From contig CANRPK010000007.1 in assembly GCA_947632455.1 (NCBI GenBank), positions 1 through 45,066 of the forward strand: DNA of 45,066 nt, read 5' to 3'. A program made the translations under genes and the position numbers. The DNA comes from an uncultured Bacilli bacterium (lineage in GTDB: Bacteria; Bacillota_I; Bacilli_A; RF39; UBA660). The notes under the pieces were generated by a model. The model searched no databases. It was not told the origin of the DNA and saw only the letters and a list, made by a program, of their open reading frames with translations. This document shows positions 13,918-25,470 of this stretch, piece after piece (position 1 is the first letter of the stretch; each line of letters opens with the position of its first letter).

Positions 13918-13950
13918 AAACTATTAAAAATGATTTAATAGTTTTTTTTT
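13917..13950 (+). terminator. Terminator after nusG
   Basis: 12-bp stem AAAACTATTAAA/TTTAATAGTTTT, 5-nt loop, then a T run. Confidence 0.9.
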
Positions 13951-13956
13951 ACAAAA

Positions 13957-14123
13957 AATTTGTCATGAAAAGTAAAAAATATACAAAATCCTATTGACAT
14001 ACGGGGGGGGGGGTATATGTTATACTAATTTCTGAAAGGAGATATGGATTTTGAAAAATCTAAAAAGAATGTTAGGTTTATTAGTTGTTTCTGTTATGGC
14101 TATAAGTGTAATGGGAACAGCAA
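13957..14123 (+). repeat. 5' direct repeat, copy 1 (promoter plus signal-peptide code)
   Basis: 167 bp almost identical to 15564-15730. It includes the upstream AT-rich region, -35, poly-G run, -10, ribosome site and signal-peptide codons. Differences are single bases and the lengths of the G run (11 here, 10 there) and of one A run. Confidence 0.95.
13994..14026 (+). promoter_or_regulatory. Promoter with 11-G tract in the spacer (putative phase-variable), gene 1
   Basis: TTGACA at 13994-13999 and extended -10 TGT-TATACT at 14018-14026 (hexamer 14021-14026). The spacer of 21 bp contains 11 consecutive G (14003-14013). A 17-bp spacer would need seven G. G runs of this length are otherwise absent from this AT-rich window except in the sister promoter. 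Promoter call is strong; phase variation is inferred. Confidence 0.8.
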
Positions 14124-15403
14124 GAGCCGAGGTTTGTAGCGGAGAAGCATGTCATGTTAAAGCTACAATCGTCGGAAGTAAGAAAGGTTCTGAAACTGCA
14201 ACTTACGGAGATTTAAAAGATGTAGCAGCTGAAATTGCTGCCCGTGCTGGTGTAAGCGATGCTACAGAAAAAATTACTAAAGTTGAAATTACTTTATTAG
14301 ATGATGCTACTTTAGCTGATGTAGCTTTCCACACTGTAAATTCTGCTACTGGTGGAATTACTTGCCCAGTTACAATTAATTTAGGCGGTCATGAATTAGC
14401 TATAGATGTTGCTAGTCCATTCGACGTAAAAAAAGGTGGAAGTTTAACTATTAACGGAAGTGGAGAAGTTACTGCAACTAATAAGGCAACTACATTAGTT
14501 AGTGTAGATCGTAGTGGAAGCTTTAAAACTACTGGAAAAGTTACTTATACTTTAGATGATACAGCTACATTTGTTGCAACAACTACTGATGAAAGTGGAA
14601 GAGTTACAGTTACAACTGATGCTGGTACTACTGTTGAAGCTAACGTTGGCTTTGATGTTAAGGCATATGCTGATGTAACTGTTGCAGGTACTTATAATGT
14701 TGCTGATCAACTAATTAAAGTTGGAGAAAATGCTTCTAAAGCAAATGCTAGTGTTATTAATGTAAACGCTAAAGCTACTTCTACTGGTGAAGATGTTATT
14801 TCAGTTGGTGGTTATACTAAATTAACTATTAATGGTGGTGAATACGCAGCTGACTTAGCTAATAAAAATGCAGTTGCTGTTGATGCAGCTTCAGCTGTAG
14901 TTATTAATGGTGGAGACTTTAAAGCTACTTCTGGCTCTTCAGAAGGCAAAGGTTATGCTGTTGCTTTAGGTGAAGATGTAGAAGCTACTATTAATGGAGG
15001 AACTTTCACAAGTGGTGAAGGTTCAGATGGTGAATACTTACCTGCATTATTTATTAAAACTATGCCAAAGAATAAAGGTAATGTAATAGCTGGTACATTT
15101 AACTATGGAATGGTTGCTACTGGTAAAACTTTAGGTGAACAAGGAAATCCTGACACTGATAAGAATATTGCTAATTTAGTAGCTACTACTTCAACTTATA
15201 CTGTTAATAAAGATAATGGTACTGTAGTTGTTAAAGCTGGTGCTGCTAGTGACCCTGAAAAAGATCCTGAAAATAAACCTAGTACTGGTGATGACCAACC
15301 TAGCGAAAATCCTAAAACTTTTGATGCTATTGGTAGTTTAGTTACTATGGCAATCTCTAGTTTAGGTGTTGTTGGAACAGCAACTAAAAAAATGTTCAAA
15401 TAA
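14051..15403 (+). CDS. Secreted beta-helix surface protein 1, NPKTF cell-wall sorting-like signal
   Basis: 450 aa. A Sec signal peptide (KNLKR, hydrophobic core, cleavage after GTARA) is followed by a domain starting CSGEACHVKATIVGS. Short repeats such as LTINGGEYA, VVINGGDFKA and ATINGGTFTSG mark a right-handed beta-helix as in pectin-lyase-like adhesins. A proline- and charge-rich linker (DPEKDPENKP) leads to NPKTFDAIG, a hydrophobic stretch and a basic TKKMFK tail, the layout of a sortase signal with NPKTF instead of LPxTG (from residue 420). Start is TTG 14051 with AAAGGAGAT upstream; the ATG at 14044 is out of frame. It forms a monocistronic unit. Ligand unknown; an adhesin or antigen role is inferred. 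Confidence 0.85.
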   Translation: MKNLKRMLGLLVVSVMAISVMGTARAEVCSGEACHVKATIVGSKKGSETATYGDLKDVAAEIAARAGVSDATEKITKVEITLLDDATLADVAFHTVNSATGGITCPVTINLGGHELAIDVASPFDVKKGGSLTINGSGEVTATNKATTLVSVDRSGSFKTTGKVTYTLDDTATFVATTTDESGRVTVTTDAGTTVEANVGFDVKAYADVTVAGTYNVADQLIKVGENASKANASVINVNAKATSTGEDVISVGGYTKLTINGGEYAADLANKNAVAVDAASAVVINGGDFKATSGSSEGKGYAVALGEDVEATINGGTFTSGEGSDGEYLPALFIKTMPKNKGNVIAGTFNYGMVATGKTLGEQGNPDTDKNIANLVATTSTYTVNKDNGTVVVKAGAASDPEKDPENKPSTGDDQPSENPKTFDAIGSLVTMAISSLGVVGTATKKMFK

Positions 15404-15458
15404 AAAAAACCTAATAATTTTTTAAGACGAGCTTTTTTCCTCGTCTTTATTTTTTTAT
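15175..15458 (+). repeat. 3' direct repeat, copy 1 (C-terminal code plus terminator)
   Basis: Closely matches 16809-17088. The sorting-signal codons and the terminator are identical; differences are in the linker codons. Confidence 0.9.
15424..15457 (+). terminator. Terminator of surface protein gene 1
   Basis: Stem AAGACGAG/CTCGTCTT with an 8-nt loop, then T-rich; the same sequence follows gene 2. Confidence 0.9.
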
Positions 15459-15460
15459 AT

Positions 15461-15484
15461 AGCCCTAATTTTTAGGGCTTTTTA
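15461..15484 (+). terminator. Second tandem terminator after gene 1
   Basis: 8-bp stem AGCCCTAA/TTAGGGCT with a TTT loop and a T run. It is absent after gene 2. It should insulate gene 2 from read-through of gene 1, making each poly-G promoter independent. The bases 15485-15563 hold nothing else I can identify. Confidence 0.85.
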
Positions 15485-15563
15485 AATTTTATAAAATATT
15501 AAAATATTGTTTGTTAACGGCTAAAATCTAGCTTTAATTAGGTGATAATTTTTATTTAGCAAT

Positions 15564-15730
15564 AATTTGTCATGAAAAGTAAAAAAATATACAAAACCCT
15601 ATTGACATACGGGGGGGGGGTATGTGTTATACTAATTTCTGAAAGGAGATATGGATTTTGAAAAATCTAAAAAGAATGTTAGGTTTATTAGTTGTTTCTG
15701 TTATGGCTATAAGCGTAATGGGAACAGCAA
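15564..15730 (+). repeat. 5' direct repeat, copy 2
   Basis: Partner of 13957-14123. Confidence 0.95.
15602..15633 (+). promoter_or_regulatory. Promoter with 10-G tract in the spacer (putative phase-variable), gene 2
   Basis: TTGACA at 15602-15607 and extended -10 TGT-TATACT at 15625-15633. The spacer is 20 bp with 10 consecutive G (15611-15620), one G fewer than the sister copy. Confidence 0.8.
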
Positions 15731-17034
15731 AAGCTGCTAGCGGTACTCCATGTAGTGGAGATGCTTGTCATATTAGAGCTACAATCGTTGGAAGCAAAGA
15801 AGGTTCTGAAACTGCTACATATGGTGATTTAACTGATGTTGTTGCAGAAATTAAAGATCGTGTTGATACTGACGGTGAAAAAATCACTAAAGTAGATATT
15901 ACATTATTAGCTGATACAGTATTATCTGGTTCAGATACCTTTAAAACAGATGGACAAACTCATGGAACTGGTATTACTTGTCCAGTTACAATTAATTTAG
16001 CTGGTTATGAACTTGATGTACAAGTTGCTAGCCCATTTGTTGTAGTAAAAGGAGGAAGTTTAACTATCAATGGTAGTGGAACTGGAAGCCAAGTTGCAGG
16101 TACAGTTACTACATTAGTTAGTGTACAACGTGGTGGAACTTTTAAAACTACTGGTAAAGTTACTTATGCATTAGATGATAATGATACATTTGTTGTAGCT
16201 GATGGTACTACTGCGTCAAGTGGAAGAATTACAATTATAACTGATGCATCAACAACAGTTGAATCAGCTAAAGTTGCTTTTGATACAACAGCATATGCTG
16301 ATATAACAGTTGCTGGTAATTATGATCTTCAAGAACAATTAGTTAAAGTTGGAACTAATAATTCAAAAGTAAACGCAAGTGTTATTAATGTAAATGCTAC
16401 TACTTCATCAGTAAAAGCTAATGCATTATTAGTTGGAGGTTATGCTAAATTAACTGTTAATGGTGGTAAATATACTGCTGATGGAGCTGATAATAGTGTA
16501 GTGTCAATTACTGCTATTTCTGATGTAACTATTAATAATGGTACATTTACAGCTACTTCTGGTTCTTCTACTCTTGACACAGGTTATGCTGTACGTTTAG
16601 GCGCAGGTGCAACTATTAAGATTAATGGTGGTACATTTACTAGTGGTGAAGATACAGTTACTCGTGAATATTTACCTGCATTATTTATTACTGATATAGC
16701 TAAAAATAAAGGTAATGTAACAGCTGGTACATTTAACTACGGAATGGTAGCTTCAAGCACTACTTCTGGTGGAGAAGGAAACCCTGATGCTGATAAAAAT
16801 ACGGAAGATTTAGTAGCTACTACTTCAACTTATACAGTTAATAAAGATGATAAAACTGTAGTTGTTAAAGCTGGCGCTGCTAGTGACCCTGAAAAAGATC
16901 CTGAAAAACCTGGTACAAGTGATGACCAACCTAGCGAAAATCCTAAAACTTTTGATGCTATTGGTAGTTTAGTTACTATGGCAATCTCTAGTTTAGGTGT
17001 TGTTGGAACAGCAACTAAAAAAATGTTCAAATAA
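15658..17034 (+). CDS. Secreted beta-helix surface protein 2, paralogue of the preceding gene
   Basis: 458 aa. The signal peptide is identical to that of gene 1 up to GTA, then KAASGTPCSGDACHIRATIVGS. The same beta-helix motifs appear (LTVNGGKYTA, VTINNGTFTA, IKINGGTFTSG) but the central ~350 residues have diverged by many substitutions and small indels. The C-terminus from NPKTFDAIG onward is identical. TTG start with AAAGGAGAT. Its own promoter and terminator make it an independent unit. The pattern of constant ends and variable centre fits a recently duplicated, recombining surface antigen pair. Confidence 0.85.
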   Translation: MKNLKRMLGLLVVSVMAISVMGTAKAASGTPCSGDACHIRATIVGSKEGSETATYGDLTDVVAEIKDRVDTDGEKITKVDITLLADTVLSGSDTFKTDGQTHGTGITCPVTINLAGYELDVQVASPFVVVKGGSLTINGSGTGSQVAGTVTTLVSVQRGGTFKTTGKVTYALDDNDTFVVADGTTASSGRITIITDASTTVESAKVAFDTTAYADITVAGNYDLQEQLVKVGTNNSKVNASVINVNATTSSVKANALLVGGYAKLTVNGGKYTADGADNSVVSITAISDVTINNGTFTATSGSSTLDTGYAVRLGAGATIKINGGTFTSGEDTVTREYLPALFITDIAKNKGNVTAGTFNYGMVASSTTSGGEGNPDADKNTEDLVATTSTYTVNKDDKTVVVKAGAASDPEKDPEKPGTSDDQPSENPKTFDAIGSLVTMAISSLGVVGTATKKMFK

Positions 17035-17088
17035 AAAAACCTAATAATTTTTTAAGACGAGCTTTTTTCCTCGTCTTTATTTTTTTAT
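16809..17088 (+). repeat. 3' direct repeat, copy 2
   Basis: Partner of 15175-15458. Confidence 0.9.
17054..17087 (+). terminator. Terminator of surface protein gene 2
   Basis: Stem AAGACGAG/CTCGTCTT and T run, identical to the one after gene 1. Confidence 0.9.
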
Positions 17089-21426: not shown

Positions 21427-24400
21427 TTGAAAAAAATTACAGATTTTATAATTAACAAAAGATATTTTATTTTAGTTTTATTTGGGTGTTTAACAATCTT
21501 TTGTGCAATATTATCTAATAAAGTTAATATTAATCATGATATAGCAAAATATTTACCTGATACTTCCGAGACTAGAATAGGAATGAACATTATGGAAGAG
21601 GAATTTGATGAGATAAGTAACTTAGATATAATGTTTGAAGATTTAAATGAAGATGAGAAAAAGGTAATAAAAGAAGAATTATTAAATATTAAGGGAATAG
21701 ATAGTGTTGATTATGATAATACCGATGAATATAATAAAGATAATTATACTCTATATACAATTACAATAAAAGATAAAGCGGATTCTAAACTTGCGGAAGA
21801 AGTTTATAAAAAAATTGAAGAAAAATATCAAGATTATACTTTTTATACTAGTGGAAGTATAGCGGAAGCTAATAAAACAGTATTACCATTTGGAATAATT
21901 GTATTAGCCGTGGTAAGTGCTTTAGTGATACTTTTAGTTATGTGTGAATCTTATGTCGAACCTTTTTTATTTTTAATATCTATTTTGATGGCTGTAGTAT
22001 TAAATAAAGGAACTAATGTTATATTTCCTAGTGTTTCTAATATAACTAATTCGATTGTAGCAATATTACAAATGGCTTTATCTATGGATTATTCGATTAT
22101 GTTAATGAACAGATATGATCAAGAAAAACAAACAGAAAAAGATAAAGTAAAAGCTATGAAAAAGGCTTTATATAAAGCTTTTAGTGCAATATCAAGTAGT
22201 TCTATTACGACGATTGTAGGGTTACTTGCTTTAGTATTTATGAGTTTTAAAATAGGTAAAGATTTAGGATTTATTTTAGCTAAGGGAGTATTATTTAGTT
22301 TAATATGTATTTTCTTAGTATTACCAGCATTAATATTAATATTTGATAAATGGATAGTTAAAACTAAGAAGAAAAGTCCTAAAATTAATTTAGATAAATT
22401 AGGTAAGTTTAGTTATAAAATTAGATATGGGGCAGTATTCTTATTTATTATAATTTTTCTTACTAGTTTTATGTTAAAAGGAAATTTAGGAATTGATTAT
22501 ACTGATGCCCAGGATTCAGTGGTAGGTCAAGTATTTGAAGAAAATAATCAGATAGCAATTATATATAAAAATGAAGAAGAAGATAAATTAAAAGACTATT
22601 TAAAGAATTTAGAAGATAACAAAAAAGTAAAAGAAGTTTTAGGATATAGTAATACGATAAATGAAAAACTAGCTTATAATATGTTAAATAGTAAATTAAA
22701 AGATTTAGGTTCTTCAGTAGAGGTAGAAGATTATTTATTAAAAATATTATATTATGATTATTATAATTCTAATAATGATATTAAAATATCAATGGATGAT
22801 TTTATTAATTTTATAGAAAAAGAAGTTTATAATAATGATACAGCTAGTAAAAAAATTGATGATCAGATGAAAAAAGATATTAATAGATTAAAAAATTTTA
22901 TTACAACAAATGAAATTAATAAAAAAAGATCAAAGAAAGAAATAGCTAGTATTTTAGAAATAGATCAAAAGAAAATTGATGATGTTTTTATTTATTATCT
23001 ATCTAAGAATAATAATATTAAATTAGATATGCAAGAATTTGTTAATTTTATGAATAATGATGTATTAACAGATAATAAATATGCTTCTAAAATTGATAAG
23101 GCTAGTAAAGATAAATTGAAAACTTTAACTAAATTTGTTGATGTTCAGACTATTCAAACTAAAATGAGTAGTAAAGAAATGGCTGAATTATTTGATATGG
23201 ATGCTTCTATGATGGAACAATTATATCAATATTATATTTTAAAAGATTATACTAATATTAATTTATCGATTAATGATTTTGCTAATTTTGTATTGGATTA
23301 TGTTATAAATGATAAAGAATATGCCAAAAGCTTTTCAAAATCCGATATAGAAAACATTAAATTATTAGCGACTTTTAGCAATTTAAATATAATTAATAAA
23401 TCTAGTACCACAGCCCAGTTAGCTAGTTTATTTAATATAAATGAAGATATGGTAAAACAATTATTATTATTAAAATATATTAATCAAAATAGTGAAAGTT
23501 TATTAAGTATACCAGAATTTATTCAAAAAACAGTAGCTATCAAAGATTATTTAAATGGAACAGATATAAGTAAATTAGAGAATTTAGTAATATTTACCAA
23601 TAAAGAAAATAATTTAAAAGAAATGACTAAAGATGAGCTAACTCGCTTATTTGGAAGTATTATGGATGTTGATGGGATATATGCCTTTAATGGAAAAACT
23701 GATGAGGAAATGACACCCAAAGAGTTTATAGATATGGCTTATACAGTAAAAAATAATGATAATATTGCATTATTAAAATTAATAATAGATGAAAGTGTAA
23801 GTGATAATCCAGTTAAGTATGGCGCTCAAGAATTAGCCAAAATATTAGAAATGCCAGATGCTTCTGTTATTAAAATATATAATTTGATAGATTATGCTAG
23901 TGGTCCTAGTTGTACACCTAGGGAATTTGTAAATATTATATTAGCGAATAAAGATTTAGAAGAAATAAAAAATAATGTAGATACTTCAACAATGGAACGT
24001 TTACAATTATTATCTACTATTATGACGAGTGCTAATAATAAAGAAGAATATTCTTATCGTTCTTTAGCCAAAGTAATAGGAATGAATTCTAGTGAAGTAA
24101 AAAAAATATATGTTTTATATGAAAGTATATATGATGGAGTTAGTATAACACCAATAGAGTTTGTAGATTTTGTACTTTTAAATCAAAATGATAGTTTATT
24201 AGTGGATAAATTAGATGAAGAAGTATTGGAAGATTTAAATTTACTTAAGACGGTAATGAATGATGTAGTGGATGATAAAAAATATGAAACTCAAGAACTT
24301 GCTAGTTTATTAAATATAGATAAAGAAGATTTAAATTTAATTTATGGCTTATATGATTTTAAATATGGAGATAAAAACTATAATATTTCTTTAAAAGATT

Positions 24401-25470
24401 TTATAAATTTTTTACTTAATAATGTAGTTAATAATAAAGAGTATGCAAGTAATTTTGATAATAATCAAGTAATTAGATTAAAGACAGTAAAAGATATTAT
24501 GGATATGGCTATAAATGAAGAAGGATATACTAAAGATTTGATGTTTAATGTTACTAGTAAACTAAGTGATAAAATAGATAAAAATACTATTGACATGCTT
24601 TATATTTATTATGGTAGTGTTCAATTATATGATGAAAAATGGGAGATGACTATTTCTAGTTTTGTTAAATTTTTAAATGAAGATATATTAAATGATGAAA
24701 AGTTTAATGATTATATAGATGAAGAGATGAGAAATGATATAATTGATGCTAAAAAGACTATTGGAGATGCGCAAGATTTATTAATTGGGGATAATTATTC
24801 TAGAATTATTTTAAATACGACATTTCTTAAAGAAGATGAAGAAACCTTTAATTTTATAAAAAATATTAAGAATGATCTTAGTAAAGAAGTAAATGATTTT
24901 TATGTAATAGGGGATTCACCAATGGCATATGAAATGAGTAAGACTTTTAATGATGAACTTAATTTGATAACTATTATAACAATGATGGCAATTTTTATAG
25001 TAGTAGCTATTACTTTTAAATCAATACTTATTCCAATAATATTAGTATTAATTATTCAAACTGCGGTTTATTTAACAATGGGAATATTATCGATAGTTGG
25101 AGAAAATGTTTATTTTATTTCAATTTTAATTGTTCAAAGTATTTTAATGGGAGCAACTATTGATTATGCGATTGTTTATACCACTTATTATTTGGAATAT
25201 CGAAAGACTGAAGAAATAAAAGACGCAATTAAAAAAGCTTATAATAATTCTATTCATACTATTTTAACTTCTAGCTTAATATTAATTATTGTAACATTAA
25301 TTATTGCTTGTTTTACCTCAGCTATAGCCGCTAAAATATGTAAAACAATTTCCGAAGGTACTTTATGTGCGACAATTTTAATATTAGGATTATTACCAGC
25401 AATTTTGGCTTGCTTTGATAAATTTATTGTAAAAAAGAAAAATTTAATTACATTGAAAAACTTAAAATAA
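21427..25470 (+). CDS. Giant MMPL/RND-family exporter with a repeat-filled extracytoplasmic loop
   Basis: 1347 aa, well above the 700-1050 usual for Gram-positive MMPL proteins. Two RND halves are visible. The first has one span near residue 10-30, a loop, and a five-helix block at about 152-310. The second has a span near 336-352, an enlarged loop, and a five-helix block at about 1176-1335. Proton-relay regions ALSMDYSIMLMNRY and LMGATIDYAIVYTTYY are present. The second loop (about residues 429-1113) is a tandem array of about nine helical repeats. Start is TTG 21427 with AAAGGGAGAT 6 bp upstream. The substrate is probably a lipid, peptide or amphiphile; not determinable here. Confidence 0.88.
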   Translation: MKKITDFIINKRYFILVLFGCLTIFCAILSNKVNINHDIAKYLPDTSETRIGMNIMEEEFDEISNLDIMFEDLNEDEKKVIKEELLNIKGIDSVDYDNTDEYNKDNYTLYTITIKDKADSKLAEEVYKKIEEKYQDYTFYTSGSIAEANKTVLPFGIIVLAVVSALVILLVMCESYVEPFLFLISILMAVVLNKGTNVIFPSVSNITNSIVAILQMALSMDYSIMLMNRYDQEKQTEKDKVKAMKKALYKAFSAISSSSITTIVGLLALVFMSFKIGKDLGFILAKGVLFSLICIFLVLPALILIFDKWIVKTKKKSPKINLDKLGKFSYKIRYGAVFLFIIIFLTSFMLKGNLGIDYTDAQDSVVGQVFEENNQIAIIYKNEEEDKLKDYLKNLEDNKKVKEVLGYSNTINEKLAYNMLNSKLKDLGSSVEVEDYLLKILYYDYYNSNNDIKISMDDFINFIEKEVYNNDTASKKIDDQMKKDINRLKNFITTNEINKKRSKKEIASILEIDQKKIDDVFIYYLSKNNNIKLDMQEFVNFMNNDVLTDNKYASKIDKASKDKLKTLTKFVDVQTIQTKMSSKEMAELFDMDASMMEQLYQYYILKDYTNINLSINDFANFVLDYVINDKEYAKSFSKSDIENIKLLATFSNLNIINKSSTTAQLASLFNINEDMVKQLLLLKYINQNSESLLSIPEFIQKTVAIKDYLNGTDISKLENLVIFTNKENNLKEMTKDELTRLFGSIMDVDGIYAFNGKTDEEMTPKEFIDMAYTVKNNDNIALLKLIIDESVSDNPVKYGAQELAKILEMPDASVIKIYNLIDYASGPSCTPREFVNIILANKDLEEIKNNVDTSTMERLQLLSTIMTSANNKEEYSYRSLAKVIGMNSSEVKKIYVLYESIYDGVSITPIEFVDFVLLNQNDSLLVDKLDEEVLEDLNLLKTVMNDVVDDKKYETQELASLLNIDKEDLNLIYGLYDFKYGDKNYNISLKDFINFLLNNVVNNKEYASNFDNNQVIRLKTVKDIMDMAINEEGYTKDLMFNVTSKLSDKIDKNTIDMLYIYYGSVQLYDEKWEMTISSFVKFLNEDILNDEKFNDYIDEEMRNDIIDAKKTIGDAQDLLIGDNYSRIILNTTFLKEDEETFNFIKNIKNDLSKEVNDFYVIGDSPMAYEMSKTFNDELNLITIITMMAIFIVVAITFKSILIPIILVLIIQTAVYLTMGILSIVGENVYFISILIVQSILMGATIDYAIVYTTYYLEYRKTEEIKDAIKKAYNNSIHTILTSSLILIIVTLIIACFTSAIAAKICKTISEGTLCATILILGLLPAILACFDKFIVKKKNLITLKNLK
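22711..24770 (+). repeat. About nine degenerate ~75-80-residue helical repeats within the MMPL gene
   Basis: Each unit reads roughly (E/Q)-x-L-A-x-L-hydrophobic-x-I/M, a helix ending in Y-x-L-Y, then a polar turn, I-S-x-x-(D/E)-F-(V/I)-x-F-(V/L) and a helix ending before the next unit. Examples: KKEIASILEID, SKEMAELFDMD, AQLASLFNIN, AQELAKILEM, YRSLAKVIGMN, TQELASLLNID, and the matching MDDFINFIE, MQEFVNFMN, INDFANFVLD, PREFVNIIL, PIEFVDFVLL, LKDFINFLLN. Confidence 0.8.

Follow-up and report, generated by a model that had tools for sequence, protein, structure and literature searches.

Poly-G promoter spacers ahead of predicted surface-protein genes in uncultured Bacilli: a probable case of phase variation by slipped-strand mispairing

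A 45,066-nucleotide stretch of DNA from an uncultured member of the Bacilli (hereafter the window, i.e. the whole stretch that was analysed) carries two promoters with a pure G tract between the -35 and -10 elements, each ahead of a gene for a predicted surface protein. Slipped-strand phase variation of promoter spacing across a surface-protein family is probably the best explanation of this layout. The recurrence of the layout in relatives, the exported nature of the proteins behind the tracts and the varying tract lengths all point to the poly-G spacer switch that had been proposed in a sequence-only reading of this DNA; from them we infer slippage in living populations, length-dependent transcription and surface display of the products.

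Promoters and genes of the window

The features that bear on the two promoters are, in order of position:

13919..13950, + strand: weak intrinsic terminator after nusG, an A+T-rich hairpin followed by a T run (AACTATTAAA-n5-TTTAATAGTT-TTTTTTT)
13994..14026, + strand: promoter 1, read from the sequence as TTGACA-TAC-G11-TATATGT-TATACT, spacer 21 bp (-35 TTGACA 13994-13999; G11 14003-14013; TG 14018-14019; -10 TATACT 14021-14026)
14035..14041, + strand: Shine-Dalgarno sequence AAAGGAG of gene 1, with a TTG start at 14051
14051..15403, + strand: gene 1 (P0001), 450 aa, with a signal peptide and a C-terminal anchor (NPKTFD-hydrophobic stretch-KKMFK)
15424..15485, + strand: pair of intrinsic terminators separating gene 1 from promoter 2, with stems at 15424-15447 and 15461-15479 and T's after each
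15602..15633, + strand: promoter 2, read likewise as TTGACA-TAC-G10-TATGTGT-TATACT, spacer 20 bp (-35 TTGACA 15602-15607; G10 15611-15620; TG 15625-15626; -10 TATACT 15628-15633)
15642..15648, + strand: Shine-Dalgarno sequence AAAGGAG of gene 2, with a TTG start at 15658
15658..17034, + strand: gene 2 (P0002), a predicted exported paralogue of 458 aa with the same signal peptide and C-terminal anchor as gene 1
17054..17085, + strand: intrinsic terminator after gene 2, its stem identical to that of the first terminator 3' of gene 1

On re-reading, both poly-G promoters were found where the sequence-only reading had placed them, with the spacers of 21 and 20 bp that it had given. The promoters are of the sigma-A type, both copies having the consensus TTGACA and TATACT, and have the extended -10 TGTTATACT in common. 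As in the promoters of porA and tp0126, a homopolymeric G tract lies between recognisable -35 and -10 elements; it makes up half of the spacer. The tracts had been described as following TTGACA directly: they are pure runs, G11 and G10, but the trinucleotide TAC intervenes. Their surroundings, described as almost invariant, are very much alike (97% mean column identity over 168 columns) without being invariant, since the copies differ, beyond the G run, by A6 versus A7 upstream and by a few substitutions, one of them within the spacer (TATATG/TATGTG).

A chance origin of the G runs was rejected. The motif GGGGGGGG has seven overlapping matches in the window, all from the two G runs, compared with 0.08 expected from dinucleotide shuffles of the window, and 0 of 100 shuffles reached seven. 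In the 1,544,559-base (1.54-Mb) assembly, runs of eight or more G or C occur in the spacers of promoters 1 and 2 and nowhere else.

The upstream neighbours are a secE-like and a nusG-like gene, identified by eye, and the nusG match adjoins the same promoter in two relatives too. The terminator at 13919..13950 was also read by eye, being too A+T-rich for the rule of the terminator scanner, and would isolate promoter 1 from the putative secE-nusG operon. Each of the two surface-protein genes looks like its own transcription unit because terminators lie between the genes and after gene 2. Genes 1 and 2 are 70% identical. Both proteins start with a signal peptide (KNLKRMLGLLVVSVMAISVMGTA) and end in ENPKTFDAIGSLVTMAISSLGVVGTATKKMFK, which resembles a sortase signal; with signal peptide and C-terminal anchor, they are probably exported and are predicted to be sortase-anchored surface proteins. 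The body of the gene 1 product is strand-rich and beta-helix-like. No Pfam family was found above the cut-off for P0001, its AlphaFold model is of low confidence, and the fold search gave no PDB match at E 0.001, with a few weak beta-helix hits among the poor matches. A scan of genome contigs with the P0001 protein yielded no match in a set that may omit the records nearest to the window's genome. Near the surface genes, the window also encodes a 1347-aa membrane protein of the MMPL/RND family (21427-25470).

A third paralogue, 68% identical, is located on contig C16 (L014, from locus position 2293). It lacks a G run, its promoter is an ordinary one with a 17-bp spacer, and it is possibly a constitutive copy. 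Directly 3' of it lies a sortase gene (L014:3777 onward; PF04203, E 1.5e-8). Signal peptide, NPKTFD-hydrophobic-KKMFK terminus and a sortase, the attributes of a wall protein with predicted sortase anchoring, are all encoded in this genome. A fourth gene, on contig C37, has only the C-terminal anchor in common with genes 1 and 2. On the same contig (L015:1-3500), repeats of 176 nt (91% identity) and 82 nt (96%) flank divergent inserts; downstream of them lie a mutL-like gene and the gene of a surface protein that has the C-terminal anchor alone in common. This region is a possible store of variable cassettes.

Recurrence and length of the tracts in relatives

Genomes were searched with the pattern TTGACA-n(0-8)-G7+-n(2-14)-TATA; the pattern read backwards and a C-run version served as controls. 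In the genus, 10 of 36 genomes contained the pattern, with 21 distinct promoters and 0 matches of the backward control. In the family, it was present in 37 of 193 evenly sampled genomes and in 32 of 148 genera, with 138 matches (including some single runs counted with alternative -10 ends) versus 1 for the backward control and 0 for the C-run version. The phylum sample consisted of 344 genomes, all of one class; the G version of the pattern was present in 15 of them and the C version in 1. When one genome per species was scanned, the matches listed included many uncultured Bacilli and Clostridia of rabbit or ruminant origin, as well as Candidatus Ancillula, Faecalibacterium, Helicobacter labacensis and Treponema ruminis. 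Viral contigs gave only 6 pattern matches.

Some genomes are rich in such tracts: runs of eight or more G number 43 in G154, 33 in G101, 20 in G231 and 19 in G243. Within the fetched loci, 91 of the 96 inspected runs of this length have a -35-like element on one side and a -10-like element on the other. The position of the tract floats between lineages, at 0-8 nt from the -35 and 0 to more than 10 nt from the -10, and conservation does not extend to the remaining spacer sequence, whereas the purity of the run and its location in the spacer are kept. A spacing function is therefore favoured over a fixed protein-binding site. A different arrangement was seen in locus L228 (G025:C7), where runs of G13 and G10 (locus positions 437 and 2228) lie beside TATAAT in inverted-repeat-like sequence, the first being flanked by CCTTGAT..ATCAAGG; it may represent an operator or a terminator-like element.

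The first open reading frame behind the runs looks exported, according to a simple hydrophobicity rule, in 57 of 68 cases, compared with 22 of 94 other open reading frames at the same loci, a difference whose p of about 1e-14 is only nominal because paralogous families inflate the count. The proteins behind the runs span different families and most are without a Pfam family. In some genera they have C-terminal anchors of the types NPKTFD, NPQTYD and NPNTSD; those of G154, G150 and G132 have an N-terminal membrane segment and variable C-termini. Many of the fetched runs of eight or more G in G154 (L200-L219) precede genes for exported paralogues that have a conserved FRLVLAP motif in an otherwise variable C-terminal region, and promoter switching may in this genome be combined with sequence diversification. 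A repeat of about 76 bp, which includes an imperfect hairpin (for instance TAACGTCCCG..CGAGACGTTA) and ends in GTAAATAATTTAC or similar, was observed upstream of several surface genes and G-run promoters of G243 and G154 (L266, L267, L242, L206, L276). It coincides with contig ends and could be a recombination site.

Run length ranges from 7 to 16 with a mode of 9, and the spacers are mostly 15-21 bp long, each assembly giving one consensus length; the variation seen is hence that among copies and among species represented by one consensus genome each. Among 14 pairs of promoters at least 90% identical around the run, the number of G's differs in 5, including the three closest, and A/T homopolymers of at least 6 differ in 2, so that the excess variability of the G runs is suggestive only. 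The three closest pairs (96.8% identical around the run) have G11/G10 (the window), G11/G10, and G8/G10 (one Faecalibacterium MAG). In G027, G10 and G5 occur within identical flanking motifs. The repertoire of G154 is nearly uniform, almost all promoters having G9; two of its promoters, which are followed by 200 bp of identical sequence, have G9 and G8. At the first gene after nusG, which is syntenic in three species, the tract is G11 here and G9 in both G014 and G015, and a tandem array of three copies after nusG in G015 has 9, 11 and 10 G's. Tract length thus differs among paralogues as well as at a syntenic locus, with conserved flanks, and the comparison across related genomes that the sequence-only reading had suggested as a check showed run lengths that are not constant. 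The difference between the two copies of the window, which it had taken as a sign of slippage, is real but says little by itself, the nearby A run differing too. All copies of the window's promoter type have spacers of 19-21 bp, and none in the assemblies is at 17-18 bp, the spacing presumed for an ON promoter.

Polarity of the tracts and alternative explanations

In the genomes of both the family and the class, the coding strand carries the tract as G and essentially never as C; the counts given above (138 matches versus 0 and 15 genomes versus 1) reject an equal use of C runs. Runs on one contig generally share a strand, the one rich in G, and their strand matches the GC skew in 9 of 9 contigs. 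Since this strand also carries about 90% of the genes, the causes of the polarity are inseparable, and a leading-strand rule as its sole cause was set aside. Replication orientation may contribute, and a polarity this strict goes beyond what spacing alone would predict.

The polarity would suit a G tract that acts as a fixed cis-element co-regulating surface genes, its length being no switch, in the form of a regulator binding site or of a stiff A-form-like or G-quadruplex-prone segment. The tight lengths in some genomes, such as the nearly invariable G9 of G154, agree with such an element. We nonetheless consider it unlikely: the tract floats relative to the -35 and -10, which disfavours a position-fixed binding site, the spacers have no other sequence in common, lengths differ among near-identical paralogues, and the polarity may partly follow from the strand bias of the genes.

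Homopolymers drift in length, the A run near the promoter differs too, and many contigs break near the runs, which is what runs without regulatory meaning would also show if they were neutral mutational products or artefacts of assembly or sequencing. Such an origin is very improbable, given that these run lengths are unexpected at this composition and that the runs are almost confined to promoter spacers, mostly of exported proteins. Moreover, cultured strains also carry similar promoters, among them Anaerocaecibacter muris, Helicobacter labacensis and Treponema ruminis, the last with a complete genome. In the two genomes inspected, a repeat element upstream of the promoters explains the contig breaks, and the breaks were on the same ground rejected as a sign of length heterogeneity in the runs. 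A translational or post-transcriptional switch, in which the run would be part of a leader transcript or of a coding sequence and the match to -35 and -10 incidental, is the least credible of the alternatives, for although many known bacterial slippage switches are intragenic, no support for it was found here, a consensus -10 and a Shine-Dalgarno sequence lie in the 37 nt between the run and the start codon, and in other genomes the run touches the -10 itself.

Known switches and the proposed mechanism

Experimental precedents for phase variation of promoter spacing by a G tract are porA of Neisseria meningitidis, where the length of a poly-G between -10 and -35 sets the spacing ahead of a surface protein, and tp0126 of Treponema pallidum, with a poly-G between -35 and -10 and an exported product; an optimum of 17 bp is reported for both (PMC7864442). 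The genome of T. pallidum contains several poly-G tracts of 8 or more (PMC7864442). The sequence-only reading had rightly cited porA as a spacer precedent, to which tp0126 can be added; opc, its other neisserial example, falls away, as the poly-C of opc encompasses the -35 sequence (PMC7864442). The window resembles porA in the pure G run within the spacer ahead of a surface-protein gene, and tp0126 in promoter architecture and exported product. In contrast, porA is one porin gene of a Gram-negative bacterium and was studied by experiment, whereas the Bacilli considered here have paralogous cell-wall-type proteins and many promoters per genome, known from sequence; tp0126 encodes an outer-membrane protein of a spirochaete, and the poly-G tracts of the T. 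pallidum tpr genes are located elsewhere in the promoter. The kind of switch is known, while its lineage and scale appear to be new in the open literature: a report on poly-G promoter switching in this lineage was not found among open-access publications.

The vlp promoters of Mycoplasma hyorhinis reportedly have a poly-A tract in the spacer. A switch of this type does not describe the window, in which the tract is G, the anchor is NPKTF and no lipobox is apparent. Both vlp and vlhA of M. gallisepticum belong to Bacilli-related organisms and are multigene surface families in which repeat length controls each promoter, as proposed here; they differ in their repeats (poly-A or GAA, those of vlhA upstream of the promoter, versus a poly-G spacer) and in encoding lipoproteins or haemagglutinins. 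The GAA repeats of vlhA lie about 40 nt upstream of the start (PMC6258824). Sortase-dependent pili of Bifidobacterium breve, also a gut Gram-positive, are subject to frameshifts through a slipping G tract (PMC9187656); this tract is located inside the gene, not in a promoter spacer. In Streptococcus pyogenes R28, likewise a member of the Bacillota, the length of an intergenic T tract upstream of a wall-anchored protein alters the transcript level (PMC7098570). There the homopolymer is poly-T instead of poly-G and concerns one divergent gene pair.

In the proposed phase variation, slipped-strand mispairing during replication would add or remove G's in each tract and thereby shift the spacer around an optimum near 17 bp, and promoter strength would vary randomly, heritably and independently. 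Cells of one population would then differ, some showing gene 1 or gene 2, others both or neither. Promoters 1 and 2 are expected to be weak because their spacers are 20-21 bp long, compared with the 17-bp optimum of porA and tp0126; both would thus now be in a weak state among the four presumed expression states, and contraction to G7-G8 would set both spacers at 17-18 bp. The extended -10 would provide some activity at poor spacings, probably with graded output. It probably keeps promoters 1 and 2 at a basal level, and a graded volume control is about as likely as a true ON/OFF switch. The lack of assembled copies at 17-18 bp fits populations that are mostly weak, but G-rich spacers may also have an optimum of their own. 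The same device would control surface-protein families throughout this family of uncultured Bacilli, its purpose presumably being the evasion of host immunity, phages or competitors, or altered adhesion.

A wider proposal is put forward tentatively and with some doubt: in uncultured Bacilli and some Clostridia from the guts of animals, up to about 40 poly-G promoters per genome might independently switch large families of variable exported proteins, giving very many surface states per clone, with a G tract whose role exceeds that of spacing. Promoter-spacer slippage has so far been described in a few pathogens, and the recurrence of the layout suggests that such switching is common in uncultured Bacilli. 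If true, random surface switching by homopolymer slippage would be routine in commensals of unknown biology. The question is open to testing in public metagenome reads without culture, and draft genomes can be searched for surface-protein repertoires by means of the poly-G spacer, a simple sequence signature. Lastly, MAGs of Faecalibacterium (L057, L079, L084, L099), a genus with cultured members that would make a convenient test bed, contain near-identical promoters with 8 or 10 G's in the spacer.
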